From assembly GCF_005893125.1 (NCBI RefSeq), contig NZ_VCJS01000046.1:1-64000 (forward strand): a DNA stretch of 64,000 bases. The letters run 5' to 3'. Below are positions 633-20,218 of this stretch, in pieces. The position numbers and the translations under genes were made by a program. The notes under the pieces were generated by a model. It had not been told where the DNA came from. It saw only the letters and a list, made by a program, of their open reading frames with translations, and ran no database searches. This DNA is from Nonomuraea basaltis (GTDB taxonomy: Bacteria > Actinomycetota > Actinomycetes > Streptosporangiales > Streptosporangiaceae). Each line of letters begins with the position of its first letter. Position 1 is the first letter of the stretch.

Positions 633-1316
633 TCAGCCCAGTTCACCCGCGAGACCCGCACGCTTGATCCAGTGTCCCCAACGAGGGCTTCGCGAGAACC
701 GCTCAGCGATGAGCTTTCCGGATGGCAGGGCTCCATCGGGACATCGATTCTCTTGAGCCCACTGCCAGACGACGCGGTGAAAGGCCGCGATGTCGGTGTC
801 GCGACCTCGAGTGTCTCGCGGAGGCGGAACGACATCACCAACGCTGTCCGATCCGGGTTCGGACACCATTGGCACTTCAATAGATGGCGTCGCCTCGTGT
901 CTCTCCCTGGAGTTGGACCTCGCTGAGAGCCGGCGAACCTGGGACATCAAGAGCTCGTAGCTGCCGATCAAAGCGGCGCTCGGCCAGGCGGCGATGATCC
1001 GGCCGATCATGCTCGATTCGGCAACCGCGATGTTGGCGCCGAGGCTGGCAAGGCTGCCGATCACAAGAAGGGTCCAGGCCAGCGTGCCGCCGCGGGAGCC
1101 GTACCGATTGGACAGGAGGATGGACATCGAGGCGACGACGATCGTGCCGTCGACGGCGAGCGGAATCAGCACCGCCGCCAAGGGGTCTTCTCCATGACGC
1201 AGGCAGAGTTCGTGCATGTGGCGGAAGGAGACGACCGCCGCGATTACGGCCAAGAGCGTGACGCCCGCGATGGTCGTACGCTGGATGTTGCGCACCGCGC
1301 GAATATCGGAATCCAC
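633..1316 (-). CDS. DUF2637 membrane protein (SpdB-like, mobile-element type)
   Basis: 227-residue protein of the DUF2637 family, common on actinomycete conjugative plasmids and integrative elements, where such SpdB-like proteins are associated with plasmid spread. Roughly residues 15-35, 50-68, 78-100 and 105-123 are hydrophobic and form about four membrane segments, followed by a soluble basic tail. The start is GTG at 1316 with a GGGGAGGG ribosome site about 8 bases upstream. The last ~35 residues (AERFSRSPRWGHWIKRAGL) recur in a second copy at 5065-5218. A recombinase tail lies upstream, so this looks like the residue of an integrated element. Confidence 0.75.
   Translation of the reverse strand: MDSDIRAVRNIQRTTIAGVTLLAVIAAVVSFRHMHELCLRHGEDPLAAVLIPLAVDGTIVVASMSILLSNRYGSRGGTLAWTLLVIGSLASLGANIAVAESSMIGRIIAAWPSAALIGSYELLMSQVRRLSARSNSRERHEATPSIEVPMVSEPGSDSVGDVVPPPRDTRGRDTDIAAFHRVVWQWAQENRCPDGALPSGKLIAERFSRSPRWGHWIKRAGLAGELG
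634..773. repeat. Direct repeat copy 1 (3' end of DUF2637 gene)
   Basis: About 140 bases encoding the C-terminus of the DUF2637 protein recur at 5065-5218 in the same orientation with only scattered mismatches and a few small indels (for example CGCACGCTTGATCCAG, GAACCGCTCAGCGATGA and CTCCATCGGGACATCGATTC are shared). The two copies bracket about 4.3 kb of accessory genes. Confidence 0.85.
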
Positions 1317-1352
1317 CGCTCAGCCCTCCCCACCAGGAAGAACGAGTCGGGC

Positions 1353-1705
1353 GGAGGCCGTGAACGGCATGTACGTATCGAGTGTGTCCCCCCTCGGACA
1401 CATACCTTTTGCATACGTGGGGGGCCAGGGACAACCTGAGCCTCCGCGAGTTGTTTCTGAGGCTTGTAGGTCAGCCGCCGCCCCGTCTGGGCGTAGAGCT
1501 CGGCCTTGTCGACCGGATCAGCCTCCTGAATGACCTTGACCAGGTCACCAAGTGCGATCATCACGGCGTGAATCTCCTCTCGCGTCATGCGGCGTCGGCC
1601 GCTGGACTGTCGTAGCTGCGGCTGAGCAGTCGGCGGCTCAAGCAGCTGTCCCACTCTTGTACCGTGCCGTTCCAGCAGCTCGTCCGCCGTGAGGATCGTC
1701 CTAGA
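1353..1705 (-). pseudogene. Serine recombinase C-terminal fragment
   Basis: C-terminal end of a large serine recombinase of the type found in actinomycete integrative elements. The readable part contains EEIHAVMIALGDLVKVI and EADPVDKAELYAQTGRRLTY. It then continues in a second frame with APHVCKRYVSEGGHT, a typical tail of these proteins. The catalytic N-terminal resolvase domain is missing and there is a frameshift near 1430, so it is not functional. Together with the DUF2637 gene it marks the remnant of an integrated element. Confidence 0.6.
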
Positions 1706-1801
1706 CACCGCGCACGGCTCTCGTCGGCAGGTGGACACCGTCCGGTTGCGGCGTGGCCGCCATGCCGACGAGAGCTTCGCAAGTGGGGGAGCGCCCGTCA
1801 G

Positions 1802-2263
1802 TCATGTGGGCAGAGGGATGGGGCGGTCCACGACCGTCTCGTAGACCAGGTCGGTGGCGATGGAGCCGACACGGGCGAGTTCGGAGGTGATCTGCTCGAG
1901 GTCGCTCATGCCGGTGGCGACGATCTCCATCACGTAGCAAGACTCCCCCGTGACACGCAGACAGCGCACGATCTGCGGTTGGCCGGCCAGAGTGGCGGTG
2001 ACCTTGTCGTACAGCGAACCGTGGACCTTCATGCGGACGATCGCGCGCAGGGTGTAGCCCAAGGCTTCGGGCTCGACGCGCGCCCGATAGTCCCCAATGA
2101 CTCCGTGCTCCTCCAATGAGCGCAGGCGGGTCCGCGTGGCCGAGACACTGAGCTGGATGGACTCGGCGAGCTTGGCCAGGGTCGCGCGGCCGTCGGTCTG
2201 GATGGCGGCGATCAGGGCACGGTCCACGTCGTCCAGCAGACTGGCGGCTGGTGTGTTGGTCAT
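1802..2263 (-). CDS. Lrp/AsnC family transcriptional regulator
   Basis: 153 residues, the normal length of a complete Lrp/AsnC regulator. Residues ~8-60 form the winged helix-turn-helix (LLDDVDRALIAAIQTDGRAT, then LSVSATRTRLRSLEEHGVI). Residues ~70-145 form the ligand-binding RAM domain with a VTGESCYVMEI core. The start at 2263 was chosen because the N-terminus then matches the family; the frame is open further upstream but without similarity. It is divergent from the phzF-like gene, with 94 bases between the start codons. Lrp proteins usually control the adjacent divergent gene, so it probably regulates the phzF-deaminase pair. The effector is unknown. Confidence 0.9.
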   Translation of the reverse strand: MTNTPAASLLDDVDRALIAAIQTDGRATLAKLAESIQLSVSATRTRLRSLEEHGVIGDYRARVEPEALGYTLRAIVRMKVHGSLYDKVTATLAGQPQIVRCLRVTGESCYVMEIVATGMSDLEQITSELARVGSIATDLVYETVVDRPIPLPT

Positions 2264-5670: not shown

Positions 5671-6008
5671 TCCTCCAGCTAGCCGATGCGATGAATGGGC
5701 AGTCGCCGGTCGGTGTGGCCCCGGTTTTGCGGCGGTATCGTGGTCTCGCCATGCGTCGACGACCTCCTTTACCCCGCCTGCCGCAGGCACGCGAGAACCT
5801 TGTCGTCAGCGTCAAGGCAACTTGCGCCCGGTCACGGAGCCGGGGGCAAGCAGCACCCGCTGTCGAGCGACAGTGCGATGGGCCCGTGCGCTACCTGACG
5901 CCGTAACCCCTGCGGTCGGAGACCTCGACGTGTTCCTTGTCGTCACCGGTGAGGTCGTCGGCCTTGCTGGAGATGATGTCTTTGCCGACCGCCTCATCCG
6001 CCGCGATG
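5671..6008. other. Non-coding stretch, nothing recognised
   Basis: No reading frame in this 340-base stretch shows family similarity or a convincing ribosome site. It is probably scarred flanking DNA between the LLM relic and the IS5 tail. Confidence 0.5.
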
Positions 6009-6157
6009 AGCGCTGTGGAGGAGCGCAATACCGCCGAGCGCTGTATCAACCGGATCAAGGAGTGGCGTCGGCCGGACTTCCGCTTCGACAAGACCCGGAG
6101 AGCTGCTTGGCCAGGCTTCACCTGCGAGGCGCCATCCTATGGATCCGGCGCCTCTGA
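6009..6157 (+). pseudogene. IS5-family transposase C-terminal fragment
   Basis: Encodes ERNTAERCINRIKEWR, the region with the last catalytic Glu of IS5/IS4-type DDE transposases. It then continues after a one-base frameshift with LARLHLRGAILWIRRL and a stop. Only the final ~45 residues survive. Confidence 0.7.
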
Positions 6158-6501
6158 CCGGCCTAAAGATCCAAGCGCCGAGCACGGTCAGCACGTGAGG
6201 TGGAGCAGCTCCGCGACGGGATCCAGCATGCCGGGCAGGTGGGGGAGTGGCGTCGATCACCCGCTCGGCCTGGCCGCCGGCGTCGCCGGCCACCGCCGCA
6301 TCGGCTCCGAGCTCCAGCACCTTGGCGCAACTGGGGCTCGCCGGTGCCTCGGCGGTGCGCGCAACGGTCCGACATGGTGGTGACGGCGCTGGCGCGGGTG
6401 CGCCAGAACAGGATCCATTCCCCGCAAATGGCGCGATAGGACGATGGTGACCCGGTCACGGCGGCGCGGGACCAGCGTTTCTCGCATGCCGGACAACGAA
6501 C
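6158..6501. other. Spacer between IS5 relic and lanthipeptide exporter
   Basis: About 340 bases without a supported gene. Several short frames are open on both strands, as expected at this GC content. One minus-strand frame (LELGADAAVAGDAGGQAERV) faintly recalls a dehydrogenase, but not enough to call. No clear terminator was found after the exporter gene. Confidence 0.4.
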
Positions 6502-8409
6502 TCAGGCGTACTGGTCCGCCTGGAGCCGGTACATGGTCGCGTACGGCCCGCCGGCCCGCATGAGCTCGTCGTGATCGCCGTGCTCGGCGATCCGCCCGGC
6601 CTCGAACACGTAGATGCGGTCGGCTCTGGCCACCGAAGCGAGCCGGTGCGTCACCAGGATCACCGTTTTGCCGCGGGTGGCCAGCTTGGCGACCTGGTCG
6701 AAGATCTCGATCTCCGCCTTGGGGTCCAGTGCCGAGGTGGGTTCGTCGAACACGAGCACGGGCGCATCCCTGAACCACGCCCGCCCCAGCCCGATGCGCT
6801 GCCACTGGCCGCCGGACAGCTCGGTCCCGCCCATGAACTCGCGGGCCAGCAGGGTCTCCCAGCCGTCGGGCAGCGCGGCGGCCACGGCGTCGGCGCCGCT
6901 GGCCACGCTCGCCCGCCAGAGCCGGTCGCGGTCGCCGGCAGCTTGCGGGCGGCCGAGCGTGAGGTTGACGCGGGCGGTGGCCGGCCAGCGGGCGAAGTCC
7001 TGGGTGACGAGGGCGACCCGGTCGAACACGTCCTGCCGGCGGAGCCGTTGGATGGGGACGCCGCCCCACGTGACGCGGCCGGAGGCCGGCAGGTAGAGAC
7101 CGCTGAGGAGTTTGGACATGGTGCTCTTGCCGGAGCCGTTGGCGCCGACGAAGGCCACGATCTCGCCCGGCCGGATGACGACGTCGGCGCGGTCGAGGGC
7201 GGGTCGGGTCTGGCCGGGGTAGGTGAAGGTGAGGCGCTCGGCGCGGATCTCGACGGGGTGCGGGGGAAGCGGGACGGGTCCGCTGGTCATCCGGTGTCCG
7301 GCAGCCTCGGCGCAGGCGCGTTCCCATTCCAGGACGTACAGGCCCTGCTCGTAGACCTGGTTGATGGACATCACCAGGCTGATCAGGCCTGCTTTGGCGG
7401 TGCGGATGGCGATGACGGCCGCGCCGGCGACGGCGAGCGGGATGGTGCCGGCGATGAGGAGCAGGCCGAGGGTGGCGTAGGTGAGCACGCCGGCCGCGCC
7501 GGACACGGCGTCGCCGGCCAGCCCCAGGCGGGCTTCGTCGCGGCCGAGCCTGGCCTGTTCGGCCTCGGCGCGGGCGGAGAGCCGGTGGTAGTGGCCGAGC
7601 AGGAAGCCGCCGGCGCCGTGGGCGCGTACTTCGGGGGCGACGTCGCGGCCGGTGAGCAGGCCGCTGAGGACCTCGAGTTGGCGGCTGAGCTCCATGTGGC
7701 GTCTGGCGGAAGCGAATCTGGCGCGGGCGGAGCGTACGGCGCTCCAGCCCTTCGGCACCACGGTGGCCAGCAGCAGCGGCAGGAGCAGCGGGTGCAGGAC
7801 GCCGAGCACGGTGGCCACCGCGACCAGCGTGGACAGCCCGGCGAGTAGCTGCGCCGCCTGGGTGATCACGACGCGGGCGGCCCTGGTGCCCTGCCTGGCG
7901 GCCTCCAGCAGGTTGTGGAAGCCGGGCGATTCCAGCGCGGCCAGCTCCGCGCCGGTCGCCAGCCGGAGCAGACGGGTGTAGGCGAGGCGTTCGATGGTGG
8001 GCCCGAGGCGGCTGGCCGCCGCCTTACCGGCGGCCCGGGCGAGGCTGCCTGCCGCGGCCGCGCCGGCCATGACCAGGAGCGCGGGCACGGCTGCCGTCAG
8101 CCGCTCGGTGGAGGGGCCGCCGGTCATGAGCGGGACGAGCACGTGGTACGTGGACATGAGCGTGACCACGGTGGCAACGCCCGCAATCAGCTCGGAGACG
8201 AGCACGACCAGGAGCTCCTTGGGCGCGGCCTCCCTTCCCAGCCGCACGGTGACGGCGACCAGGCCGGGCAGCTCGCGGGCCATGGACAGGAACCCGGTGC
8301 GTACGCCGGCGCCCTCGTGCTTGAGCTGCCCGGCCGAGGCGCGGATGCCGCTGCCGAACAGCGGGTCGCGTTCCGAGGACGGGGCGTGTCCCGTGCGATG
8401 GCGGCCCAT
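6502..8409 (-). CDS. lanT: Lanthipeptide ABC exporter (fused permease-ATPase)
   Basis: 635 residues. Residues ~45-370 are an ABC type-1 membrane domain with about six hydrophobic segments. The C-terminal ~230 residues are the ATPase, with Walker A GANGSGKST, signature LSGGQWQR, Walker B VLVFDEPTSALD and the switch His in LVTHRLA. There is no N-terminal C39 peptidase domain, so it should export the peptide but not cut off its leader. The ATG at 8409 shares one base with the lanC1 stop (TGATG), which indicates coupling. Precursor, cyclase and exporter form one minus-strand unit. Role by context: export of, and possibly self-protection from, the lanthipeptide. The symbol is generic. Confidence 0.85.
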   Translation of the reverse strand: MGRHRTGHAPSSERDPLFGSGIRASAGQLKHEGAGVRTGFLSMARELPGLVAVTVRLGREAAPKELLVVLVSELIAGVATVVTLMSTYHVLVPLMTGGPSTERLTAAVPALLVMAGAAAAGSLARAAGKAAASRLGPTIERLAYTRLLRLATGAELAALESPGFHNLLEAARQGTRAARVVITQAAQLLAGLSTLVAVATVLGVLHPLLLPLLLATVVPKGWSAVRSARARFASARRHMELSRQLEVLSGLLTGRDVAPEVRAHGAGGFLLGHYHRLSARAEAEQARLGRDEARLGLAGDAVSGAAGVLTYATLGLLLIAGTIPLAVAGAAVIAIRTAKAGLISLVMSINQVYEQGLYVLEWERACAEAAGHRMTSGPVPLPPHPVEIRAERLTFTYPGQTRPALDRADVVIRPGEIVAFVGANGSGKSTMSKLLSGLYLPASGRVTWGGVPIQRLRRQDVFDRVALVTQDFARWPATARVNLTLGRPQAAGDRDRLWRASVASGADAVAAALPDGWETLLAREFMGGTELSGGQWQRIGLGRAWFRDAPVLVFDEPTSALDPKAEIEIFDQVAKLATRGKTVILVTHRLASVARADRIYVFEAGRIAEHGDHDELMRAGGPYATMYRLQADQYA

Positions 8410-9500
8410 CAGCCGGCCAGGAACAACTTCGAGGCGATCGGGTCGCCGCCGGTGACGACCAGCAGGGCGAGGGCGATCCCGGCGGCGCCGGAGAGCAGGC
8501 CAGGTCCGGTGACGTCGAAGCCCAGCGGCAGGCGGCTGTCGTAGGCGTCGCACAGCCGGTCGAACAGGTCCTCCACGGCGAGGGCGAACCGGTCACGCGG
8601 GTGCGTGGCGAAGGCGGCCGTGATCAGCATGAGCCCGGCCAGCCCGTGGCACACGCCCGGCCCCTCCAGCCCCCAGCTCTCCGGAGCTTGGAGTAGCTGG
8701 GCCATCGCGTCGTCGGCGGCCCGCTGATAGCGGGGTTCGCAGAGCGCGTCGCCAGCCAGGCGGAGGGCGCGGGCGATGCCGGGCACCCCGTAACACCAGG
8801 CGGCGCGGCGCGGCGACGGATGCCATGTCACGCGGTCGACGCCCGCGGGCCACGCGGTACCCCATCGGTCCTCCCTGGCCAGGCCGAGCAACCAGTCGGC
8901 GACCGTCCTGATCGCCCGGCTCTCCTCCGGAGCGGCGCCGGCAGGGCGGTCCGTGCAGAGCAGGGCGAGGACGGCGAGCGGTCCGGCGGCGCCGTGGGCG
9001 AGGCCGCAGTCGGCGTAGCCGTCGGCGACCTGCCAGGCTGCGGGGACGTGACGCATCGGATACGGCGGTCGTGCGCCCGCTCCCCCGGCCAGGGCGGAGG
9101 CCACCTCGTCCCGTTTGCTCATGGGCGGACGCAGCAGCAGGTAGAGGCCTGCTCCCGCGGTGCCGGAAATCAGGTCGTGATCGGCTACGGGGCCCACGGC
9201 CGCGTCGATCCTGCCGAGCAATCTCTCGTAGCGGCCGGTGTCCCCGCGTAGCGATGCGGCGGCCGCGCCCAGGGCTGCCACCCCCCCGTCGAAAAGACCG
9301 GCCGTTCCCGCAGCCCCAGCACGCATTCCGCAGGTGAGAAAACGATGGCCGATCATGCCCCACCCATTATTGGAATCCATTTTGTCAATAGCCGAGTACA
9401 GCGGGATAATCGCCACCGCAGGATATTCCGCGCTACGAGCCGCCACCTCCCGCGCGATGGCGAGGGCGGCGGCCCGCCTGGAGGGGCTCGTCAGATGCAC
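8409..9500 (-). CDS. lanC: LanC-like lanthionine cyclase, copy 1
   Basis: 363 residues from a GTG at 9500 that overlaps the last ten bases of the precursor gene; a longer frame to 9572 exists but lies wholly inside the precursor gene. Zinc ligands are Cys236 (WCYGVPG), Cys284 and His285 (VCHGLAG). The likely acid/base His169 is in GLAHGAAGP. DLISGTAGAGLYLLL near residue 110 is the usual first barrel helix pair. The reaction is zinc-activated addition of Cys thiols to dehydroalanine/dehydrobutyrine. It is shorter than LanC2 and differs from it in sequence, so this is not a recent duplication. Confidence 0.85.
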   Translation of the reverse strand: MHLTSPSRRAAALAIAREVAARSAEYPAVAIIPLYSAIDKMDSNNGWGMIGHRFLTCGMRAGAAGTAGLFDGGVAALGAAAASLRGDTGRYERLLGRIDAAVGPVADHDLISGTAGAGLYLLLRPPMSKRDEVASALAGGAGARPPYPMRHVPAAWQVADGYADCGLAHGAAGPLAVLALLCTDRPAGAAPEESRAIRTVADWLLGLAREDRWGTAWPAGVDRVTWHPSPRRAAWCYGVPGIARALRLAGDALCEPRYQRAADDAMAQLLQAPESWGLEGPGVCHGLAGLMLITAAFATHPRDRFALAVEDLFDRLCDAYDSRLPLGFDVTGPGLLSGAAGIALALLVVTGGDPIASKLFLAG

Positions 9501-9700
9501 ATGCCCGGGGCCTTGGCCCCGTACGTGGGCGTGCAACCATTGCAGGCCGTGTGGGAGCAGGTGCCGCTCCACGAATACCCGCAGGTGCTGTCGCCGCCGC
9601 TGCAGGCGTAGACGGGAGGCACGGCGTCGGTCTCGACGAGCAGCTCGATATCGAGATCGAAGACGTCGTCGGCGAGGTCGGCCTGGGCCACTGGGCTCAC
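9491..9700 (-). CDS. lanA: Class I lanthipeptide precursor peptide
   Basis: 69 residues, GTG start at 9700 with GGAAGG 9 bases upstream; TTG at 9706 is too close to it. The leader contains the FDLD motif at residues 14-17, the recognition box of class I dehydratases. The core region after about residue 29 has six Cys (33, 40, 48, 53, 56, 68) and ten Ser/Thr (34, 38, 39, 43, 45, 47, 49, 51, 57, 59). The Cys-rich stretch reads GTCSHTACNGCTPTYG. Cys33 has no core Ser/Thr before it, so it must pair with a downstream residue, form a disulfide or stay free. No leader peptidase gene is seen nearby. Confidence 0.85.
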   Translation of the reverse strand: MSPVAQADLADDVFDLDIELLVETDAVPPVYACSGGDSTCGYSWSGTCSHTACNGCTPTYGAKAPGMCI

Positions 9701-9863
9701 GGTCAATTTCCTTCCGTTGTGGACTCGAACAGAAAGGGACCTTACCCAGGATCTTCGGCTGCCCATCGCACGCTTGCAGAAAATGCGAAGTGTTCGGCGG
9801 AACGCGATTCTACTGTTAGTCTCAGCCACCATTGTCAGGCCGAGTAAATAGAAGGCAAGGTGT
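9701..9863. promoter_or_regulatory. Divergent promoter region of the lanthipeptide locus
   Basis: 163 bases between the precursor (minus) and lanB (plus). It is noticeably more AT-rich than the flanking genes and is the only candidate promoter region for both arms. A purine-rich GAAGGCAAGG lies just before the lanB ATG. No operator could be assigned. Confidence 0.5.
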
Positions 9864-12836
9864 ATGGCAGAGCTCGTAGCCGCCGACTTCGCGTTGCTGC
9901 GCATGAGCGTACTCCCGGCGGAGCACGCGGAGCGCACCCGTTCCGACCGCGGCCACCCGGCGGGCTACCTGCGGTCGATCACCGCCGATCCTTTCGTCAG
10001 GGAGGCGATCGCGGTGTCGAGCCCGTCGCTGGCGCGTACGCTCGATCTGGTGCACGAGGGGCGTCCGGTGGCGCGGAAGAAGCTGCGGCGTGCGGTGATC
10101 TCCGCGACCAGGTATGTGCTGCGCATGGCGACCAGGCCCACGCCGTTCGGGCTGATGGCGGGGGTGGCGGAGGTCCGCTTCGACGACGCGGGGAAGGTGC
10201 GCCTGGGCGATCGGCATCAGAAGCTGGCCCGGCCCGACATCGGGTGGTTGCTCGACGTCGTACGTGACCACGAGCGCCGCCCCGAGGTGCTGCGCCGGCT
10301 GCGGGTCGTGCTCAACGGCCTGTGTTACGCCCGCGGCGACCGGCTGGTGTTGCCGTATCTGCCGCGCGAGGGCGAGAACGGGGTGCGGGAGGTGTCGGTG
10401 CGGATGACGCCGATGGTGTGGGCGGTCATGGAGCGGGCCGGGCGCCCGGTGGCGTTCACCGAGCTCGTGGACGAGTTGCTCGCCGCCTTCCCGCAGGGGA
10501 CCAGGAAGAAGGCGGAGACCGCGCTGGCCGGACTGGTCGAGCGCACGGTCCTGCTGACCGACCTCGTGCCGCCCGATGACGCCCCCGACCAGATCGCGCA
10601 CGTCACGGAACGGGCCGGCGTGCCGGGGCTCGGTGCGGTCGCCACGGCCCTGCGGTCCTACGCCGCCACCACGGTGGGCGAGGGGTTGCCTGCCTGGCAG
10701 GCGGTGCTGAGCGCCGCCGAGGAGGTCAGGGGCGGGCACCACGCCCCGCACGTGGATCTCAGGCTGGACGCGGACGTGCACCTGCCGCGAGTGGTCGCGG
10801 CCGAGTTGGAGGAGCTGGGCCGCACCCTGGTCAGGATCACGCCGCCGGACCGTGACACCGGGCATTTGCGCGGCTACTACGACGAGTTCGTGGACAAGTA
10901 CGGCACCGCCCGTCTCGTCCCGCTGAAGGAGCTGCTCGACCCGGAGCTCGGCCTGGGCGGCCCGGCGGGCTACCGCGGCTCGGAGCGTCCCGAGGGCGAT
11001 CCTGAGCAGGATCGTTACCGCAGCCAGGATCGTTACCGCAACAAGGTGCTCGGCGAGCTGGCCCAGGGCGCGCTTTTCGACGGCAGGCGGGAGGTGGAGC
11101 TGGACGACGCCACGCTGGACCGGCTGGCCGGCCGGGACGACGGCCGGCTGCCCGAGGTGCTCGAGTTCGGCACGCATCTGCTGGCCGGCTCGGTGGAGGG
11201 GCTCAACGACGGGGATTTCCGGCTGGTGCTGGCGAACATGCCGCTTTCGCGCCGTACCGGGGCGATGACGGGCCGGTTCACGTACTTCCTGGATGAGCTG
11301 CGTGAGCAGACGGCGCGCATGTGGCGCGACGCCGGAGGCGCCGTGCCCGCGCAGGTGACGTTCCAGCCGACGTGGGCCAGGGTCACGAACGTGGCCAGGG
11401 TGCCGACGCTGGTGGAGCGGACGCTGCCGATCGGCACGTTCGCCGACCCCGGCCAGGAGGCGGTACTGTCACTCGACGACCTGGCGGTCGGGGCCGCCGA
11501 GGACAGGTTGTTCCTGTGGTCGTCGCAGCTGGGCGCGGAGATCGTGCCCGCGACACCGCACATGCTGGTTGTGCCGAAGCTGGCGCTCGACGCCATGCGG
11601 TTCGTGTACGAGCTGGGCGAGGTCAGGCACAGGGCGTGCGACGGGTGGGATTGGGGGCTGGCGGGGACGGTGCTGCCGTACCTGCCGCGGATCCGCCGTG
11701 GCAGGTCGATCCTGGCCTCGGCGATCTGGCGGCCCGCCATGGAGCTCAACGACGTCAAGGCGGCCGAGTCGGAGTGGGGGCGGCGGTTCGACGCCTGGCG
11801 GGAGCGGTGGCAGGTGCCGTCCGAGGTGTATTTGACCAACGGCGACAACCGCATCGGGCTCGACCTGGACGCCCCGCTGCACCGCGAGGTGTTCCGGCAC
11901 GAGCTGGCCCGCAGGCCGAGCACGCTGCTGGTGGAGGCGCCGGGCGGTGACGGGTTCGGTACGGGCTGGCTGGGCGGCCGCGCCAACGAGCTGACCGTGA
12001 CGCTTCGCTCGACCGCGCCGGAGCCGCCGGTCCGCACGGCGGCCAGGGTGACCGCGCCGCCGCCGTGGCACCACCCGGGCGGGGAATGGGTGTACGCGAA
12101 GCTGTACGCGTCGGCGGACCGGCACACGGATCTGATCAGGCAGCGGCTGCCGGTGTTACGGGCGGCGCTGCCCGGGTCGGTGGATCGCTGGTTCTTCATC
12201 CGGTACTTCGATCCGGGACCTCATCTGCGCATCCGGTTCCACGGGGAGCCTGGGACGCTGAATCGGGAGGTGGTTCCGCTGGTGCACGATTGGGCGGCGG
12301 ACCTGTGCCGGGCCGGGCTCGCGCGTTCGCTGGTGCTGGACACGTACGAGCCGGAGGTCGAACGGTACGGCGGCGCGGAGGCGCTGGAGACGGCCGAGCG
12401 GCTGTTCGCCGCGGACAGCGACGCCGTGCTCGCGCAGCTAGGCGTGGGGCTGGACATGACGCCTGAGCTGCTGGCCGCCGCGAACTACGCCGACCTGGCG
12501 CAGTCCTTCCACGGTCCTGCCTGGGAGGAGTGGCTGCTGGCCGCCTATCCCGTGGACGATCACCATCGTGCGTTCCAGTCGGTCCGGCGTGCCGCGGTGG
12601 AGACGCTCGCGGAGCCCGATCCTCGGCTGCTGGAGATCTGGGGGCCGCGGAGGCGGGTCGCCGCCGAGTACGGCGAGCTGATCAGGTCCCTGCGCCGCAG
12701 GACGCCGCTGCCGGCACTCCTGCACATGCACCACAACCGGCTGATCGGCGTGTCCAAGCCGTCCGAGGGCGCCTCGTACGCGATCGCCCGCGGCGTCGTC
12801 CAGGCGCTGCGTGACCGGGCGAGGCACCGGGCATGA
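9864..12836 (+). CDS. lanB: Full-length class I lanthipeptide dehydratase (LanB)
   Basis: 990 residues, the usual length of a two-domain LanB. The N-terminal ~660 residues are the glutamylation domain (TRPTPFGLMAG near 90, then the GQEAVLSLDDLAVG and AIWRPAMELND regions). The C-terminal ~300 residues are the elimination domain (RWFFIRYFDPGPHLRIRFHG, DTYEPEVERYGG, LLHMHHNRLIG). The enzyme uses glutamyl-tRNA to glutamylate Ser/Thr of the precursor and then removes glutamate to give Dha/Dhb. ATG at 9864 follows AAGGCAAGG. It overlaps lanC2 by ATGA. No internal stop or frameshift; appears functional. Confidence 0.93.
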   Translation: MAELVAADFALLRMSVLPAEHAERTRSDRGHPAGYLRSITADPFVREAIAVSSPSLARTLDLVHEGRPVARKKLRRAVISATRYVLRMATRPTPFGLMAGVAEVRFDDAGKVRLGDRHQKLARPDIGWLLDVVRDHERRPEVLRRLRVVLNGLCYARGDRLVLPYLPREGENGVREVSVRMTPMVWAVMERAGRPVAFTELVDELLAAFPQGTRKKAETALAGLVERTVLLTDLVPPDDAPDQIAHVTERAGVPGLGAVATALRSYAATTVGEGLPAWQAVLSAAEEVRGGHHAPHVDLRLDADVHLPRVVAAELEELGRTLVRITPPDRDTGHLRGYYDEFVDKYGTARLVPLKELLDPELGLGGPAGYRGSERPEGDPEQDRYRSQDRYRNKVLGELAQGALFDGRREVELDDATLDRLAGRDDGRLPEVLEFGTHLLAGSVEGLNDGDFRLVLANMPLSRRTGAMTGRFTYFLDELREQTARMWRDAGGAVPAQVTFQPTWARVTNVARVPTLVERTLPIGTFADPGQEAVLSLDDLAVGAAEDRLFLWSSQLGAEIVPATPHMLVVPKLALDAMRFVYELGEVRHRACDGWDWGLAGTVLPYLPRIRRGRSILASAIWRPAMELNDVKAAESEWGRRFDAWRERWQVPSEVYLTNGDNRIGLDLDAPLHREVFRHELARRPSTLLVEAPGGDGFGTGWLGGRANELTVTLRSTAPEPPVRTAARVTAPPPWHHPGGEWVYAKLYASADRHTDLIRQRLPVLRAALPGSVDRWFFIRYFDPGPHLRIRFHGEPGTLNREVVPLVHDWAADLCRAGLARSLVLDTYEPEVERYGGAEALETAERLFAADSDAVLAQLGVGLDMTPELLAAANYADLAQSFHGPAWEEWLLAAYPVDDHHRAFQSVRRAAVETLAEPDPRLLEIWGPRRRVAAEYGELIRSLRRRTPLPALLHMHHNRLIGVSKPSEGASYAIARGVVQALRDRARHRA

Positions 12837-14170
12837 CGGGGCCGGAAACGATCCGGGCCGCCGAGATCGTCGAGGAGGTGGCGCGGCGGCTGGCCGACCC
12901 GGTCGAGGTGTCACGGGTGGCCTCGACCAACACCGACCGGCTCCTGGACGGCCGGCAGCCACTGGTGTGGCATGCGATGTCGCTCAACGAGGGGTTCCTC
13001 GGGGTGGCATTGCTACACAGTGAGCTCGGGCGGCGCGAACACGCCCACGCGTTCCTGGCGGCCGCGGCCGGTGCGCAGGCCAGGAAGCACGCGTTGATCG
13101 ACGGGTTGCCGGCATTGCTGTTCGCGACGCGGGCGGCCGCCGCCCAGCCGGGCGACTACGCGTCCCTTCTGGGGCGGGCGGAGTCGATCGTGCGGAAGAT
13201 AGCGCGGCAGCGGGCCGAGGCGGAGCTGTCCCGGCTGGAACCCGGCCGGGCGGGGGTGGCGTTCAGCGCGTACGACGTCATCGAGGGGCTCACGGGGCTG
13301 GGCCGCGTGGTGCTGTCGTACGGGGACACCGAGCCGCTGTCCTACCTGATCGCGCTGACCGAGCCCATCGAGGTGGCGGGCACGCCGGTGCCGGGCTGGC
13401 TAGTGTCGCACGCGCCGCTCAGCGGGGCGCCGGCCGGTGACGGGCATTTCAACCTGGGGCTCGCGCACGGCATCCCAGGGCCGCTGGCGCTGCTGGCGGT
13501 CGCGTACCGGCGGGGATTCCGGCTGCCCGGCCACGAGCAGGCCATGGAACGCGTGGCGGGCTGGCTGCTGGACTGGGGAGACGGCGGGTTGTGGCCGCCC
13601 ACGGTGACGTTGCGGCAGCAACTCGACCGGGCCGGCGTGCGGACGCACGGGCACGCGGAGCCGGAGACGCCGGATCGCACGGTTCCGACCGCGTACAGCC
13701 GCACGCTCCCGGCAGCGTCGCACTTCCGCCCTGCCTGGTGTTACGGCACGCCTGGTGTCGCACGGGCGCTCTTCCTCGCGGGGCAGGCCCTCGACCGGCC
13801 CGAATGGCGGCAGGCGGCGGTCCGCGCCCTGCATGAGACCCTGGCCCGTCCCTGGGACGAGTGGGGGATGGTGGACGCGGGGTTGTGTCACGGCTGGGCC
13901 GGGATGCTTCATGTCACCTGCCGCGTCGGCCGGGAGAGTGGCGACCGGGCGCTGCTGGCCGCGGCCGACGCCCTGGCCGGCCGGATCGTGGCCGAGTTCG
14001 CCGAGGACGCGCCGTTCGGGTTCCGGTATTCCGGTACGGGAGGCATCGAGGTGGCGCCCGACCGGGTCGGCCTGCTCGAAGGGGCGGCAGGCATCGCGCT
14101 GGCGCTCCACCACTACTGCGGCGGCGAGCCGCCCGCCACAGGCTGGGACGCCGCCCTGCTTCTGAACTGA
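12833..14170 (+). CDS. lanC: LanC-like lanthionine cyclase, copy 2
   Basis: 445 residues with a complete set of LanC residues: Cys303 (WCYGTPG), Cys352 and His353 (LCHGWAGM), and His212 in GLAHGIPGP. The start codon overlaps the lanB stop by four bases. It carries ~40 residues around 260-295 not found in copy 1, and overall it aligns only loosely with that copy. Having two apparently intact cyclases in one cluster is uncommon. The two may make different rings on the single six-Cys precursor, or one may serve a partner that has been lost. Confidence 0.9.
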   Translation: MTGPETIRAAEIVEEVARRLADPVEVSRVASTNTDRLLDGRQPLVWHAMSLNEGFLGVALLHSELGRREHAHAFLAAAAGAQARKHALIDGLPALLFATRAAAAQPGDYASLLGRAESIVRKIARQRAEAELSRLEPGRAGVAFSAYDVIEGLTGLGRVVLSYGDTEPLSYLIALTEPIEVAGTPVPGWLVSHAPLSGAPAGDGHFNLGLAHGIPGPLALLAVAYRRGFRLPGHEQAMERVAGWLLDWGDGGLWPPTVTLRQQLDRAGVRTHGHAEPETPDRTVPTAYSRTLPAASHFRPAWCYGTPGVARALFLAGQALDRPEWRQAAVRALHETLARPWDEWGMVDAGLCHGWAGMLHVTCRVGRESGDRALLAAADALAGRIVAEFAEDAPFGFRYSGTGGIEVAPDRVGLLEGAAGIALALHHYCGGEPPATGWDAALLLN

Positions 14171-14187
14171 CAGAAGGAGACCTCCGC

Positions 14188-14460
14188 ATGGTGGGTCTGC
14201 AGGACCTCGTCGGCGACGTGGAGGGGTCCCTCACGCGTCACCTGGGGAAGAAGGCGCTGTTCAGGGGCGGCGCGATGCGCGACGTCGCCGGGATCGCCTC
14301 CGTCGGCGACATCAACAGGGTGGTCACGGGGAGCGGGTTGCGTGCCCCTGGCGTGCGCCTGGTGAAGGACGGCACGGTCATTCCACCTGACCGCTACACC
14401 TCTCCGTCCCCCTACGGCTATGCCGGGCTCGGCGACGTGGTCGACCCCGGCAAGGTCATC
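14188..14460 (+). pseudogene. Cupin/JmjC-like oxygenase, truncated by IS remnant
   Basis: ATG at 14188 with AGAAGGAGA 7 bases upstream, 17 bases after lanC2. About 91 residues are in frame. LVGDVEGSLTRHLGKKALFR, GLRAPGVRLVKDGTVIPPDR and GLGDVVDPGKVI match the N-terminus of cupin_4/JmjC-type 2-oxoglutarate oxygenases. Similarity ends at ~14460, exactly where the IS1182-like sequence begins. The iron-binding HxD...H core would lie further on and is lost. It was probably a tailoring hydroxylase of the lanthipeptide operon. The remaining frame runs on into IS sequence. Confidence 0.65.
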
Positions 14461-15175
14461 AGTTCGGCGGCGTGGCGGGACCGGTCTCGGTGGCCGCCAC
14501 CTGCCACGACGATCCCGGCCCGCGTCCGGACGAGACGGGGACCACCAGCGCCGGCACGAAGACGAACCGCGCGGTGTGGTACTTGGAGGCGACCTTCCGG
14601 CCCCGAGTATGGCAGGGCGGGGGAGCCATCACCCCGCAGGTCGGGCAGTCGAACCCCTCGACCGCCTCGGCGGCCTGCTCTGGTGTCAGTTCTGTCAGAC
14701 CAGTCTCGCGGAACCCACTCACACAACCTGGAGGTTCTGCGAGGAGTTTGCGATCGGTAACCTGGACCAAAATGGGCAGCAGATCCAGCGCTTTCTCCTT
14801 CAGGCCATGCGCGGCGACCCGAGCGCGGAACTCACTCAGCACGCTGTGATCTAACCCGGGATCGTCCAGTTCCAGCGACAGCGCGTACTTCCAGCCCATC
14901 CCGAACTCGGCGCGGTCGGTCGCCGCCCGGTCGGTCAGGTTCTCCTCCTTCTGCAGCACGGTGATCAACGCGAGCATCCCCAGGGACAGGCCAGGGCGCC
15001 CGCGGGTGCCGTACTCCTGCGCGAATTCGGCGTCAGCGAATGATTCGCCCAGCTCATCGCGGACCCGCATGGCCAGCGGGTAGGCACCCTTGGCCGAGGC
15101 GGCCCTGGTCACCTTCGCGGTCATCTCCGGAATCTGCGGCCACGGTCGCGGCTGCACCGACACCACACGCCTCAT
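14459..15175 (-). pseudogene. IS1182-type transposase remnant
   Basis: Residues ~15-125 match the N-terminal domain of IS1182-family transposases (MRVRDELGESFADAEFAQEY, GRPGLSLGMLALITVLQKEE, GMGWKYALSLELDDPGLDHS, VLSEFRARVAAHGLKEKALD). The central DDE core is missing. The remaining ~100 residues (CVSGFRETGLTELTPEQAAE, FDCPTCGVMAPPPCHTRGRK) resemble the family's Cys-rich distal part. The gene is internally deleted and its stop is formed at the junction with the cupin gene, so it is not mobile by itself. Confidence 0.65.
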
Positions 15176-15177
15176 TC

Positions 15178-15616
15178 CATGGCCGGGCTAGGAAACCGGC
15201 CGCAGAGGGCATCGTCGTGGCAGATCAGCCCAAGATCACGGATGTCGCAGGCGTGTCATCGCAATGGGCCACCAGGGTCCCCGATGGGCGCAAAGTGCCG
15301 CTACCGCCGGGCAACGGCGCAAGGAAGGGCACCTTGCTCGTCACGGACTCTGGCGCGGTCTCTGGACCCTTCGGGACGGAAAGGTGCAAGACGAGGCGTT
15401 CTCGAGACTGATGGCCGCCGAGCATGACGCCGTGGAAGCCGACGCTCTCCGAGGATTCCTCGGCACCGGGATCGGCAGCTGACTCAAGGGGTACCTGTCA
15501 TGCGATACGCCAGTGCCGCCACCGAACAAGCCTCCCGATGGCCGCGCGATCGCCCGCTTCCTGACTTTCACGGTCCACGATCAGCACGCGATCATCGGCC
15601 TGACGGCGCCGGCGAA
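15178..15616. other. Unassigned stretch with degraded plus-strand coding
   Basis: Plus-strand frames change every ~100-150 bases. The sequence includes DQPKITDVAGVSSQWATRVP (from ~15215), DGKVQDEAFSRLMAAEHDAV ending in a TGA at 15480, and ARFLTFTVHDQHAIIGLTAP ending with TAG at 15618-15620. This looks like one decayed gene that once ended at the CTAG site now used by IS5. I do not recognise the family. Confidence 0.35.
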
Positions 15617-15666
15617 CTAGGGTGTGTCCCGTGGATCTTTATGGCGGATTGGTGTAGATCATCCGT

Positions 15667-15896
15667 GTGGATGAGGAGCGTCTGAGTCGTCATGATCTGA
15701 CGGACGAGGAGTGGGAGCGGCTGGTGCCGTTGTTGCCCGTCAATCCGCGTCAGGGTGGTCGTTGGGCCGATCACCGGATGGTGATCAACGGGGTGTTCTT
15801 CCGGACGTGGATTCCACCGTGGTGCGCGCCCACCAGCATGCCGCCGGAGCGCGCCTGGCGCCGCCGACCGACTTCCCTGTAAAGGGGACGCCGTAG
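15667..15896 (+). pseudogene. IS5 transposase N-terminal part, internally deleted
   Basis: GTG start at 15667. LSRHDLTDEEWERLVPLLPV and WADHRMVINGVFFRT are the usual N-terminus. The sequence then jumps to STVVRAHQHAAGARL in a shifted frame, skipping the WRDVP...W-core segment that carries part of the catalytic domain. It stops at 15896. Confidence 0.7.
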
Positions 15897-15907
15897 ATCA
15901 CAAACCG

Positions 15908-16414
15908 GTGAAGGGCCGGGAGGCGCTGGGCCGCTCTCGAGGTGGGTTCAGCACCAAGATTCACCTGGTCGCCGACCGGCGCTGCCGCCCGATCGCGACG
16001 ATGGTCAGTCCTGGTCAGCATGGGGACAGCCCGTACCTCCGGCGCGTGCTGGAGCGCGTACGGATCCTGCGTCACGGCTTGGGCCGCCCTCGTCAGCGTC
16101 CTGGGCGGGTCTTGGCCGACAAGGCGTGCTCCTCGCGTGGCAACCGTGCCTACCTACGCCGGCGCGGGATCAAGGCGGTCATTCCGATCAAGAAGGACCA
16201 GCAGGCCAACCGCCGTAAGCGAGGTCGCAAGGGCGGGCGACCACCCGGCTTCGATGCCGAGCGGTACCGCGAGCGCAACACCGTCGAACGCTGCGTGAAC
16301 AAGCTCCGCAACGACCGGGCGGTGGCCCTGCGCACCGACAAACGCGAGTGGATCTATCAGGGCACCATCGACGTCGCCTCGATCAGGATCTGGCGCCGCG
16401 AGCCAACTCCGTGA
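15908..16414 (+). pseudogene. IS5 transposase C-terminal part
   Basis: 168 residues. LGRSRGGFSTKIHLVADRRC opens the second half of the DDE domain. VLADKACSSRGNRAYLRRRG holds the second Asp and ERNTVERCVNKLRNDRAVAL holds the catalytic Glu. The part is uninterrupted but separated from its N-terminal part by a deletion and frame change. Confidence 0.75.
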
Positions 16415-16429
16415 TCCACAGGACACGCT

Positions 16430-17539
16430 CTAGTGTCCTGAGTCAGAAATTCGTCGGCAATATGAGGCGAGGGCGTCGAGTATTTCTTCTGCGGTCTTGG
16501 TCCAGACGAAGGGCTTAGGATCCTCGTTCCACGAGGCGATCCAGGCGCGGATGTCGTGTTCCAGCGCGTGCACTGTTTTGTGGACTCCGCGGCGGATCTG
16601 CTTGGTGGTCAGTTCGGCGAACCAGCGTTCCACCAGGTTCAGCCAGGACGAGCCGGTCGGGGTGAAGTGCAGGTGAAAGCGCGGGTGCGCCAGCAACCAC
16701 TTCTTGATAGCCGGCGTCTTGTGAGTGGCGTAATTGTCGCAGATCAGGTGGACATCGAGCTCAGCCGGGACCTCGTTGTCCACCTTGATCAGGAATTTCT
16801 TGAATTCGACCGCGCGGTGCCTGCGATGCAGCGAGCCGATCACCTTGCCCGAGGCCACGTCCAGGGCCGCGAATAACGTGGTGGTGCCGGCCCGGACATA
16901 GTCGTGGGTGGCCCGCTCGGGCACCCCGGGCATCATCGGCAGTACGGGCTGAGACCGATCCAGTGCCTGGATCTGCGACTTCTCATCCACGCACAACACC
17001 AGCGCCCGCTCCGGCGGATCCAGGTACAGGCCGACCACGTCATGCACCTTCTCCACGAAGAACGGATCGGCCGACAGCTTGAACGTCTCCGAGCGATGCG
17101 GCTGAAGGCCAAAAGCCCGCCAGACTCGAGACACCGTCGACTGCGACAGGCCCATCTGCCTGGCCATCGCCCGCGTCGACCAGTGCGTGGCGTTGGCAGG
17201 CTTGGTCTCCAGAGTGCGTGCGATCAGATCCGCCACCTGCTCGTCGCGCACCGTCCGCGGCCGCCCCGGGCGCGGCTCATCGGCCAGGCCCGCCAACCGG
17301 TCGGCCAGAAAGCGCCGACGCCACTTCGAGACCGTCTCCCGCGACACCCCGACCTGCTCGGCCACCACCTTGGTGGACACCGGCAAGCAGTCCTCACCAA
17401 TCGCGTCGCATGCCAGGATCAGCCTGGCCCGCAACGCCAGATCCTGGGCACCCTTACGCCGCCGCACCCACCGCTCAAGCTCAGCCCGCTCTCCATCGGT
17501 CAGGTTCAGCGGCTCAACCTTTGGTCCTGGACGTCCCAT
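16430..17539 (-). CDS. IS630-family transposase
   Basis: 369 residues. N-terminal helix-turn-helix (VAEQVGVSRETVSKWRRRFL, then a second HTH ~115-140). DDE domain: LVLCVDEKSQIQALDRSQ carries the first Asp, HLICDNYATHKTPAIKKWL the second and TGSSWLNLVERWFAEL the final Glu. This is a full-length member with no frameshift. The stop codon TAG is read through the outer edge of the element into the CTAG target. Confidence 0.93.
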   Translation of the reverse strand: MGRPGPKVEPLNLTDGERAELERWVRRRKGAQDLALRARLILACDAIGEDCLPVSTKVVAEQVGVSRETVSKWRRRFLADRLAGLADEPRPGRPRTVRDEQVADLIARTLETKPANATHWSTRAMARQMGLSQSTVSRVWRAFGLQPHRSETFKLSADPFFVEKVHDVVGLYLDPPERALVLCVDEKSQIQALDRSQPVLPMMPGVPERATHDYVRAGTTTLFAALDVASGKVIGSLHRRHRAVEFKKFLIKVDNEVPAELDVHLICDNYATHKTPAIKKWLLAHPRFHLHFTPTGSSWLNLVERWFAELTTKQIRRGVHKTVHALEHDIRAWIASWNEDPKPFVWTKTAEEILDALASYCRRISDSGH

Positions 17540-17574
17540 AGCAAAACACTAGACGAATTTCTGACTCAGCACAC
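16433..17574 (-). mobile_element. IS630-family insertion sequence, apparently complete
   Basis: Terminal inverted repeats GTGTCCTGAGTCAGAAATTC (left) and GTGTGCTGAGTCAGAAATTC (right, complement) differ at a single position. They enclose one intact transposase gene. Both ends are flanked by TA (16431-16432 and 17575-17576), the IS630 target. That TA belongs to the CTAG duplication of the neighbouring IS5, so IS630 arrived second. Likely still capable of movement. Confidence 0.85.
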
Positions 17575-18587
17575 TAGCGGAACAGATGGATGAGTTCTTC
17601 GGCTCGCTCGGTGCGCTCGATCCAAACCTCGCGACCGCGGCGCTGTCTTTTGATGAGCTGTGCGGCATGCAGCCTGTGGCAGTAGCGGGTCATGCTGCTG
17701 TGCGCGATCTTGACTTCCGCGGCCAGCATACTCATCGTCATGGGCCGGTCCAGCGAGAAAAGCACCTCGGCACGGATCGGTCCGATGAGTTCGGATAGCT
17801 GATCTGTTGCCGGCGCGGCCGACCTGTGCCATAGCTGCTCAGCGCCGGAGAGCGGATACGCGATCCAGACGGCATCGGGGCTGTCCAATCTGGCGATCAC
17901 CGCACGCTGGCCCGCAAGCATCGGCAGCAGGACTATGTGACGATTCCCGAGATCGAAGCTGCCAGATTCCACGTCACTGATCAACAGACCTTGTTCCCCA
18001 TACCGAATGCGGTCGCTCAGGGCGCCCAGCAGCAACTCCTGCCCGCCGCGAACCGCGGCGATCCCCACACGTTCGATCTCTTTGTCGAGCAGCGGGCGGG
18101 CCCGCCGCCAGAGCGGCTCGGCAGCCTTCCACACGTCGGCGAGCGCGGAGGCGTATCCACGCAGCCACTGATCGGGCCGTTCAGCGACCCCACGCCAGTG
18201 CGCAGGTGGAGAGCCTGCGCCAAAGGTCCGCTCCAGGTCGTCGATCAGCCACGAGGGATGCATGTCATGCAACATTTCGATCTGAGCCTGGACGGACACA
18301 TCCTCCACCGTCATGCGCGGCACCACGCTGTCGGGTACGACCGAATAGCCGGGTACCGCGAGCGGGCGCGCCGCTTCACGTCCAGCGAGGCCAACAGCGG
18401 CCTGGATCGTCCGCCGCCACACCTGGGGCAAGCCTCTCGCCCGGCCGGCCAGCGCATCGGTGATCATGGCGAGCGCGGTGAGGCTCGGATTGATCGACAG
18501 AGAGAGGCGCGGCGCGGAGGAGATCCGCAGCTCGGTACAAATATTTACCTTGGACGTCACGGTCATCCTAGGATGCACATCAGTCAT
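17574..18587 (-). CDS. ArsR/winged-helix transcriptional regulator
   Basis: 337 residues. A large N-terminal effector region of unknown type (DMHPSWLIDDLERTFGAG near 95-115, a Trp/Arg-rich ~150-190) precedes a C-terminal winged helix (LFSLDRPMTMSMLAAEVKIA, SSMTRYCHRLHAAQLIKRQR). This is the layout of actinomycete 'ArsR family' proteins of about 330 residues. The start at 18587 was chosen at MTDVHPRM; the frame is open further upstream but without similarity. Its stop TAG lies in the CTAG into which IS5 inserted, so the protein seems intact. Target genes unknown; no Cys metal site is evident. Confidence 0.7.
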   Translation of the reverse strand: MTDVHPRMTVTSKVNICTELRISSAPRLSLSINPSLTALAMITDALAGRARGLPQVWRRTIQAAVGLAGREAARPLAVPGYSVVPDSVVPRMTVEDVSVQAQIEMLHDMHPSWLIDDLERTFGAGSPPAHWRGVAERPDQWLRGYASALADVWKAAEPLWRRARPLLDKEIERVGIAAVRGGQELLLGALSDRIRYGEQGLLISDVESGSFDLGNRHIVLLPMLAGQRAVIARLDSPDAVWIAYPLSGAEQLWHRSAAPATDQLSELIGPIRAEVLFSLDRPMTMSMLAAEVKIAHSSMTRYCHRLHAAQLIKRQRRGREVWIERTERAEELIHLFR

Positions 18588-18908
18588 CAGTGATCGTCTT
18601 AATGAAGCTTTGATTTCTCTGTCTTGTCGGACATCGCCAAGGCTGTCATAGGAGCCAGCCCGGCAATATCCACACCGCGCATGACAGGTTGCGCAGAACG
18701 GCCAAAGACCGAGCAGGCCCAAGGCTCGGGCGCCGTACAGCAGGAGTGCAACAGAGCAGCGTGCGTTTCGGCATACCGCGCCGCCCCACGAGTACGGCAC
18801 TCCGATCGTCTTGAGTGCGGCGGCGAGGGCGACCGCGCCCCTGCCCGAGGTTTGGATCGCTGCGAGTGTCGCCGGGTCCAGCACTTGGCCGATCTGCGAT
18901 CGATGCAC
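18588..18908. other. Intergenic stretch upstream of the ArsR-like gene
   Basis: About 320 bases. It is AT-richer just before the regulator start (18560-18640), where its promoter should lie. Further right only decayed sequence leading into the integrase tail is seen. Confidence 0.4.
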
Positions 18909-19034
18909 GATGCCCAGGGCAGCAGCGCGGGCACCAGCGTCACAGAGGCGGTCTACCGGCACCAGCTCAAGCCGGTGATCACCAAGGGCGCCCACACCAT
19001 GAACACAATCTTCGGCGACAAGCCGACGGGTTGA
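18909..19034 (+). pseudogene. Tyrosine integrase C-terminal fragment
   Basis: Encodes SAGTSVTEAVYRHQLKPVIT and MNTIFGDKPTG then a stop. This matches the extreme C-terminus of actinomycete tyrosine recombinases, in which Tyr of VYRHQ lies downstream of the active-site region. The catalytic core is gone. It marks another lost integrative element. A GC-rich imperfect hairpin (19088-19118) follows and may be its old terminator. Confidence 0.6.
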
Positions 19035-19161
19035 GTCCGAGTGAGTTGGCTCCCCGATTGGCTCCTATCGACTTCCAGAAACGGAAAAGGGCCCGACCCG
19101 CTTAGCGGATCAAGCCCTCTACCTGGTCAAACTGGGTCGGGGTGGCGGTGTGCTGGTTCAG

Positions 19162-19228
19162 GACATAGGAAACCCATGTCGCAAGACATAGGAAACTTCA
19201 GCAGGGTGTGTCTCGAGACATAGGCAAC
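19162..19228 (+). repeat. Three GACATAGG(A/C)AAC repeats at the IS481 left end
   Basis: GACATAGGAAAC at 19162-19173 and 19185-19196, and GACATAGGCAAC at 19217-19228, in the same orientation, directly upstream of the IS481 transposase. The third overlaps a TGTCTCGAGACA palindrome. Probably the left terminal repeat and internal transposase-binding sites. Confidence 0.6.
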
Positions 19229-19253
19229 TGTCGCGATCAAGAGCCTGGGCGGT

Positions 19254-19999
19254 GTGTCCAAGGCCAGAGTTGTCATCGCCGCCGTTGTCGTCGAGGGACG
19301 GACCCAGGCAGAGGTCGCCCGCTCCTACGGAGTGTCCAAGGGCTGGGTGTCCAAGCTCGTCGCACGCTACCGGGCTGAGGGCGAGGCGGCGTTCGAGCCC
19401 CGGTCCCGACGGCCGCACACCTCACCGACGGCGATCGACGCCGATACCGTCGAGTTGATCGTCCGGCTGCGCAAGGAACTGTCCGACCAGGGCCTGGACG
19501 CCGGTCCCGAAACCATCGCCTGGCATCTTGCCCACCATCATGCGCGTACGGTGTCGCGAGCCACGATCAGCCGCTACCTGACCCGGCTCGGCCTGGTCGT
19601 GCCCGAACCGAAGAAGCGGCCCCGCTCGTCCTACATCCGTTTTGAAGCGGAGTTGCCGAACGAGACCTGGCAGGCCGATTTCACTCACTACCGGCTGGCC
19701 GGCGGCACCGAGGCCGAGATCCTGTCCTGGCTGGACGACCACTCCCGCTACGCCCTATCGGTGAGCGCGCATGCCCGCGTCACCGGGCCCATCGTGCGCG
19801 ACACCTTCCGCCAGGCGGTCAGGGCCCACGGCGTGCCCGCCTCCACCCTGACCGACAACGGCATGGTCTTCACCACCCGCCTGGCCGGCGGCCGCGGCGG
19901 CCGCAACGCCTTCGAACACGAACTGCGCCGCCTGCACGTGCAGCAGAAGAACTCCACCCCCAACCACCCCACCACCTGCGGAAAGGTCGAGCGTTTCCA
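19254..19999 (+). pseudogene. IS481-family transposase, 3' end lost
   Basis: Helix-turn-helix at ~15-40 (RTQAEVARSYGVSKGWVSKL). Integrase core with WQADFTHYRL (first Asp), LTDNGMVF (second Asp) and KVERF (catalytic Glu). Family similarity stops right after KVERFQ, where GTGCGCC begins. About 50-60 C-terminal residues are missing; the frame runs on to 20168 through unrelated sequence. All three catalytic residues remain but the fold is incomplete. Confidence 0.8.
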
Positions 20000-20168
20000 G
20001 TGCGCCACGAGGCGCATGGTCGTATCCCCGGTTCAGCCGGGAGGAACTCGGAGGGAGGTTCCTGGGTCCGATGGCTTACCCAGCGCCGAAAGGCTTATGG
20101 GGACAAGAGCGGGACAAGAGCATGCCAGGAAACCGCAGGCCGTGCCCAGCGTTGATGGCGCCCGGTGA
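20000..20168 (+). other. Possible group II intron 5' fragment
   Basis: Begins GTGCGCC, consistent with the GUGYG start of group II introns, exactly where the IS481 transposase similarity ends. It continues with short complementary GC-rich blocks (CCCCGGTTCAGCCGGG, GGAACTCGGAGGGAGGTTCC) that fold into stems, as in intron domain I. Similarity to a specific intron cannot be checked here. It ends where ISL3 sequence starts, so the catalytic 3' domains are missing. Confidence 0.4.
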
Positions 20169-20218
20169 TCCTGGTTCTGGCGATCTTTGTGTGGCGGCGT
20201 CACGGATCGTGAGCAAGT

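Follow-up and report, generated by a model that had tools for sequence, protein, structure and literature searches.

In class I lanthipeptide biosynthesis, LanB dehydrates Ser and Thr residues of a precursor peptide with the help of glutamyl-tRNA, after which Cys thiols are added to the dehydrated residues at the zinc site of LanC. Nisin is made with one LanC, and it is a long-standing question for lanthipeptides what lets one such enzyme select from the many rings that could form. Two-component class II lantibiotics of the haloduracin type have one synthetase per peptide. The locus described here lies in the window, meaning the whole stretch analysed (the first 64,000 nucleotides of contig NZ_VCJS01000046.1 of Nonomuraea basaltis, whose assembly comprises 670 contigs totalling 14.3 Mb, with a contamination estimate of 8%), and brings together one LanB, one precursor gene (lanA) and two LanCs, here called LanC1 and LanC2. 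This architecture has precedent, since an in silico study from 2010 describes a class I cluster of Frankia that contains two LanC genes, plus another two-LanC cluster without a precursor (Marsh et al., PMC3091789). As described in that study, cluster I of Frankia sp. EAN1pec resembles the window locus in its class and in its LanA with two LanC genes (Franean1_1333, Franean1_1336), but it stands among methyltransferase-bearing clusters and its LanA is likened to a Salinispora one, a comparison that is by description only. In a 2024 study, where a cluster contains several cyclases, the precursor is assigned to the one closest to it (PMC11251773), and none of three phrases for two LanCs is present in a 2020 survey (PMC7268733). 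While two-LanC class I architecture is therefore already known, the lineage of LanC1 and the precursor family are apparently undescribed: no description of the LanA product or of this lineage was found in the open literature (most subscription papers lay outside the scope of the search), and the LanA core motif was not seen in the papers among the matches listed.

Our preferred reading, to which we give a probability of about 0.52 on the strength of sequence comparisons, is that LanB would dehydrate the single LanA, which would then be cyclised by two LanCs whose lineages parted long ago, LanC1 being the accessory one. The locus has the parts of a class I system, as had been proposed in a preliminary description of this DNA. 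LanB carries both dehydratase domains (Lant_dehydr_N PF04738, 591 bits, residues 41-676; Lant_dehydr_C PF14028, 172.6 bits, residues 742-976), lanA encodes an FxLD-type leader and a core rich in Ser, Thr and Cys beside it, and there are two separate and clearly different LanCs (131 of 356 aligned residues identical, 37%), both matching the Pfam family LANC_like and both with the zinc ligands and the catalytic Asp and His. The coordinates are given in Table 1.

Forty stretches around LanB relatives, taken non-randomly by LanB score and our own choice, were compared, and adding the N. solani locus and the window's first 20 kb made 42 loci in which a LanC profile run on open reading frames (ORFs) of at least 120 amino acids gave 50 LanC ORFs. 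One LanC was found in 28 loci, two in 11 and none in 3 (L019, L030 and L048, within the fetched stretch), which in a sample chosen by LanB similarity fits the earlier remark that a single LanC is usual. The window belongs to a family of six loci, three from Nonomuraea (the window, L001 of N. solani, whose LanB is 78% identical to that of the window, and L012) and three from a second genus, g52 (L013-L015). The same set of genes, for LanA, the two LanCs, LanB and the exporter, is found in L001 and L012-L015, and this common arrangement makes the two-LanC cluster look real.

Equivalents of NisC D141, H212, C284, C330 and H331 are present in LanC1, in LanC2 and in 11/11 of the second LanCs, as the LanC1-type cyclases of the two-LanC loci are called here, and the corresponding LanC1 residues (D109, H169, C236, C284 and H285) are invariant in all 11; numbering and roles for class I cyclase catalysis follow the MadC paper (PMC9889658). 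Among the 39 other LanCs the His is kept in 39/39, the Asp in 38/39 (one Glu) and each zinc ligand in 38/39, the single gap presumably belonging to L034, which is cut by a contig end. The Arg ahead of the first zinc Cys is kept in 6/11 second LanCs versus 35/39 of the others. Both window LanCs also match the Protein Data Bank sequences of NisC (2g02) and MadC (8byk), with the same catalytic Asp, His and zinc ligands, although LanC1, with 363 residues, is shorter than these structures (chains of 409 and 449). According to the MadC paper, an SH2-like domain occurs in all class I cyclases (PMC9889658); AlphaFold models built from two-sequence alignments had a mean predicted local distance difference test score of 49.1 for LanC1 and 48.5 for LanC2, too poor to judge this domain. 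The preliminary description had called both LanCs apparently complete, which is slightly generous for LanC1, because the window protein is without residues near the N-terminus that its orthologs have, in what we read as the first toroid repeat. Both window LanCs read WCYG at the zinc ligand, and WCHG is read in the second LanCs of L020, L023, L026 and L031, so that the LanC pairs of these four loci differ at the residue adjoining the ligand; NisC Tyr285 is analogous to LanCL1 His277 (PMC9934072).

In a midpoint-rooted tree of the 50 LanCs, the 11 second LanCs lie on one side of a branch with support of 100/99 and, counting only the first and second LanC groups, the 11 first LanCs are likewise grouped on the other. 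LanC1 thus groups with the second LanCs of the other two-LanC loci. In a second tree, of 35 of the 50 rows together with three outgroup cyclase domains and five more LanCs, support for the second LanCs was 91/90, with one change in 89% of the bootstrap trees. A recent duplication of lanC is ruled out by the 37% identity and the separate tree groups. Searching 54 genomes of the genus and 298 of the family (sets that overlap) with a second-LanC profile yielded 11 matches below 1e-130, all in two-LanC loci beside a LanB, these being by construction the sequences from which the profile was built. No further or orphan second LanC was found in these genomes among the candidates scored per genome, and a class-wide search of 394 genomes gave none beyond that of the window among the candidates scored; these negatives are weak and rarer members may be missed, since in the window's own genome the class-wide search scored the best 4 of 177 candidates, the family-wide search 6 of 177 and the genus search 33 of 177. 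The next-best matches (E 1e-92 to 1e-104) come from five loci, L076-L080, whose LanCs, each the only one found in its stretch and each beside a LanB, form a group of their own (99/98). In L076 and L078, a long PATPA-like repeat is read in the open frame upstream of lanC; this may be another frame of a repetitive gene.

The precursor was described earlier as a 69-residue peptide with an FDLD leader box and six Cys, and this was borne out: all six Cys fall within the last 37 residues, with ten Ser or Thr from the first Cys onward. Seven LanAs (those of the six family loci and of L016, a relative discussed below) align over an invariant frame, in window numbering C33-S-G, T39-C40, S43, S45-G-T-C48, T51, C56, T59-Y-G and A-P-G-M-C68, and their cores, counted from the first Cys, measure 37 residues in the window, 40 in L001, L012-L014 and L016, and 38 in L015. 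The precursor shares with the FxLD lanthipeptides of TIGR04363 the FDLD leader box, a class I locus and an actinomycete host, but differs in its six-Cys core with conserved SGTC and TYG..APGMC and in its score, 21.1 bits against a cut-off of 30, too low for membership in what is its sole NCBIfam match.

Several results bear on whether both LanCs act on this one peptide. A profile of the seven LanAs found one intact copy per genome in 7/7 genomes, which are its own seven, and its sole other clear match, in the genome of the window itself (G000), is to a broken copy; a weak match in G200 (E 0.0038) is, as read from the frames, in another frame of a regulator-like gene. Each of the six family loci has one lanA, unlike a two-component system with its two precursors. 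A loose motif scan also picked out further frames, three within the 64-kb window and two within L014, all judged by eye to be chance. Finally, an in-frame GTG for lanC1 lies within ATGTGC near the end of lanA in 6/6 family loci, so that LanC1 is probably translationally coupled to the precursor. It is the combination of one precursor, lanC1 embedded in the lanA message and the kept catalytic residues that leads us to place both LanCs on one LanA. The alternative that LanC1 serves another precursor encoded elsewhere, as may hold in L020, L023, L026 and L031, where motif scans gave two candidate precursors per locus in 4/4, is very improbable given the single intact LanA copy and the start of lanC1 inside lanA, and also because the two FxLD precursors of the window genome above the TIGR04363 cut-off each sit beside their own LanB matches.

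In the reading that we favour, LanB would dehydrate the one precursor, LanC2 would act as the general cyclase encoded with LanB, and LanC1, translated from the lanA message, would be an accessory cyclase with the same peptide as substrate, its most likely task being to close or correct some of the rings or to accelerate a slow step. Export would then be by the ABC protein, and the leader protease, none being recognised within the cluster, is presumably encoded elsewhere; the relatives probably also hydroxylate the peptide by means of a JmjC oxygenase, whose gene is broken in the window. A stricter division of labour, in which LanC2 would close the usual rings from Ser or Thr to a downstream Cys and LanC1 those that LanC2 cannot, as a cooperating pair on one precursor, is a tentative idea that we regard as doubtful. 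Examples of LanC1-only products would be a ring running the opposite way at the first core Cys, or rings of other stereochemistry, and in two-precursor loci the same lineage would perhaps supply one cyclase per peptide.

The proposal made in the preliminary description, that two cyclases act on one substrate, hence stands as the likeliest reading, supported by the LanA counts and the lanC1 start, but it has to be set against a relative that manages with one LanC, and further points count against it. Locus L016 (genome G178), with a LanB 61% identical to that of the window, encodes an exporter, LanB, LanC2 and the same type of precursor with all six Cys and the invariant Ser and Thr. Its LanC2 falls in the seven-row LanC2 group of the family (100/100), adjoining the three Nonomuraea LanC2s (95/88). 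Neither lanC1 nor a fragment of it distinguishable from LanC2 was found in the L016 stretch (best other match E 0.25), and G178 has one LanC genome-wide by the second-LanC profile (all 130 candidates scored, genome 99% complete). A second cyclase is therefore not strictly needed for this scaffold, and a LanC1-dependent ring is not demonstrated: either LanC1 is dispensable for the scaffold or L016 makes another ring set from similar residues. The L016 precursor has no Ser or Thr among the ten residues ahead of its first core Cys, which consequently must pair with a more distant or later Ser or Thr, form a disulfide or stay free; as L016 is without LanC1, this does not link LanC1 to that Cys and, if anything, speaks against such a link. 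The L076-L080 LanCs, too, say little on the competence of LanC1, because the tree leaves open the fork among them, the second LanCs and the rest and does not resolve them as the closest kin of the second LanCs. To these points must be added the shortness of the window LanC1 near its N-terminus and its rate of change, since its nonsynonymous rate (dN) is the highest of the four genes in 3/3 pairs of Nonomuraea loci and its ratio to the synonymous rate (dN/dS) the highest in 2/3. The same high dN, and the six Cys and invariant Ser and Thr kept by the single-LanC G178, would suit a LanC1 that is non-catalytic or redundant (a scaffold, a chaperone or a back-up for LanC2 or LanB), one LanC making all the rings; we find this rather unlikely, as a pure scaffold would not need the five catalytic positions that are invariant in 11/11 second LanCs.

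As lanC1 occurs in both Nonomuraea and g52, the simplest history would be that the line of L016 lost it. The L016 precursor still ends in APGMCY although there is no lanC1 there, so the end of LanA is not conserved for the lanC1 overlap alone. A conserved pair of divergent LanCs, alongside a natural single-LanC relative with the same type of precursor, makes ring choice testable on a defined substrate.

The dN/dS ratios of the three Nonomuraea loci (Nei-Gojobori script) are 0.33-0.41 for LanC1, 0.28-0.35 for LanC2, 0.26-0.31 for LanB and 0.15-0.22 for the exporter, and by this measure LanC1 is under purifying selection. A truncated JmjC gene at the end of the locus, absent from the preliminary description, bears on the state of this particular copy. 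The five other family loci have a full-length JmjC oxygenase gene, after lanC2 or, in L013-L015, after the exporter (the L001 copy is at 14249-15373), and the N. solani protein matches PF08007 JmjC_2. In the window an IS1182-like fragment (NF033551, matched over residues 34-131 of 238 with 58 bits against a cut-off of 270) leaves only some 93 residues of the JmjC gene, the remainder of which was not found within the 64 kb. A second lanA-lanC1 pair in the same genome (L081, G000:C330, about 1160-2090, minus strand) is clearly broken, with a stop in the precursor core and lanC1 in two frames. On account of this pair, the broken JmjC gene and the short LanC1, the window cluster may be at an early stage of decay, even with all five main genes open. 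That it is a decaying copy yielding little or no product, with the intact system in its relatives, strikes us as improbable: lanA, lanB, lanC1, lanC2 and the exporter are all open, and the LanC1 dN/dS in the pairs containing the window (0.38 and 0.41) is not far from that in the other pair (0.33).

No JmjC match was found in the L016 stretch. An obligate pairing of JmjC and LanC1 is ruled out by the JmjC-like genes of the single-LanC loci L017, L018, L022 and L025, and also by the two-LanC stretches of L020, L023, L024, L026 and L031, in which none was shown. Nor does the number of Cys track that of LanCs, since six Cys go with one LanC in L016, four with two in L024 and eight with one in L022.

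The other two-LanC loci differ from the window family. L020, L023, L026 and L031 each have, by motif scan, two candidate precursors with FDLQLR, FDLEMR or FDLQMR leaders and 6-7 Cys, together with two LanCs and one LanB, and are a candidate class I two-peptide system. They share with the haloduracin type both the two cyclising enzymes per locus and the two candidate precursors; the window family shares only the former and differs in its one precursor, class I enzymes and single LanB. L024 stands apart, having one four-Cys candidate precursor and a pair of LanCs of which the second sits on a long branch.

Table 1. Features of the two-LanC class I lanthipeptide locus of N. basaltis (window coordinates)
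Feature	Position	Strand	Basis or remark
ABC exporter, 635 aa, third gene of the lanA operon	6502..8409	-	No peptidase domain matched
LanC1, second cyclase, 363 aa	8409..9500	-	PF05147, 98.1 bits; GTG inside the end of lanA as probable start
lanA, 69-aa precursor, GTG start, FDLD box, six core Cys	9491..9700	-	Seven-member alignment; TIGR04363, 21.1 bits
Divergent lanA/lanB intergenic region, presumed site of both promoters	9701..9863	.	Poorly conserved, six loci
LanB, full-length dehydratase, both domains, 990 aa	9864..12836	+	PF04738, PF14028; TIGR03891, 172.9 bits
LanC2, LanB-neighbour cyclase, 445 aa, 4-base overlap with lanB	12833..14170	+	PF05147, 137.8 bits; catalytic residues present
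JmjC oxygenase gene remnant	14188..14481	+	Matches residues 1-93 of the 374-aa N. solani protein
IS1182-like transposase fragment, interrupts the JmjC gene	14459..15175	-	NF033551; PF05598 DUF772

The cluster consists of two operons diverging from a 163-bp gap, lanA-lanC1-exporter on the minus strand and lanB-lanC2-JmjC remnant on the plus strand. Orthologs and gene junctions suggest that the exporter starts at the ATG at 8409, which shares one base with the lanC1 stop codon, and LanC1 at the GTG at 9500, the long ORFs overstating both. The exporter, 88.0% identical to that of L001 and 83.8% to that of L012, had been reported to have no peptidase domain; correspondingly, six Pfam families are listed for it at E <= 1, including ABC_tran, with no peptidase among them. 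No tRNA genes were found within the 64-kb window, Rfam gave no match within it at gathering score, and PADLOC gave nothing for LanC1 or LanC2. Downstream of the cluster, positions 14459-21379 are rich in insertion sequences, with the IS1182-like fragment, a DDE_3 transposase (16430-17539) and an ISL3-type transposase (20219-21379), and have a G+C content of 64-68%, against 71-74% in 6001-14000. Positions 1-127 are identical between the window and the L081 contig, probably an assembly overlap at a repeat, and at positions 60505-63990 there is a large ORF whose product has both an RHS repeat and a pretoxin HINT domain.

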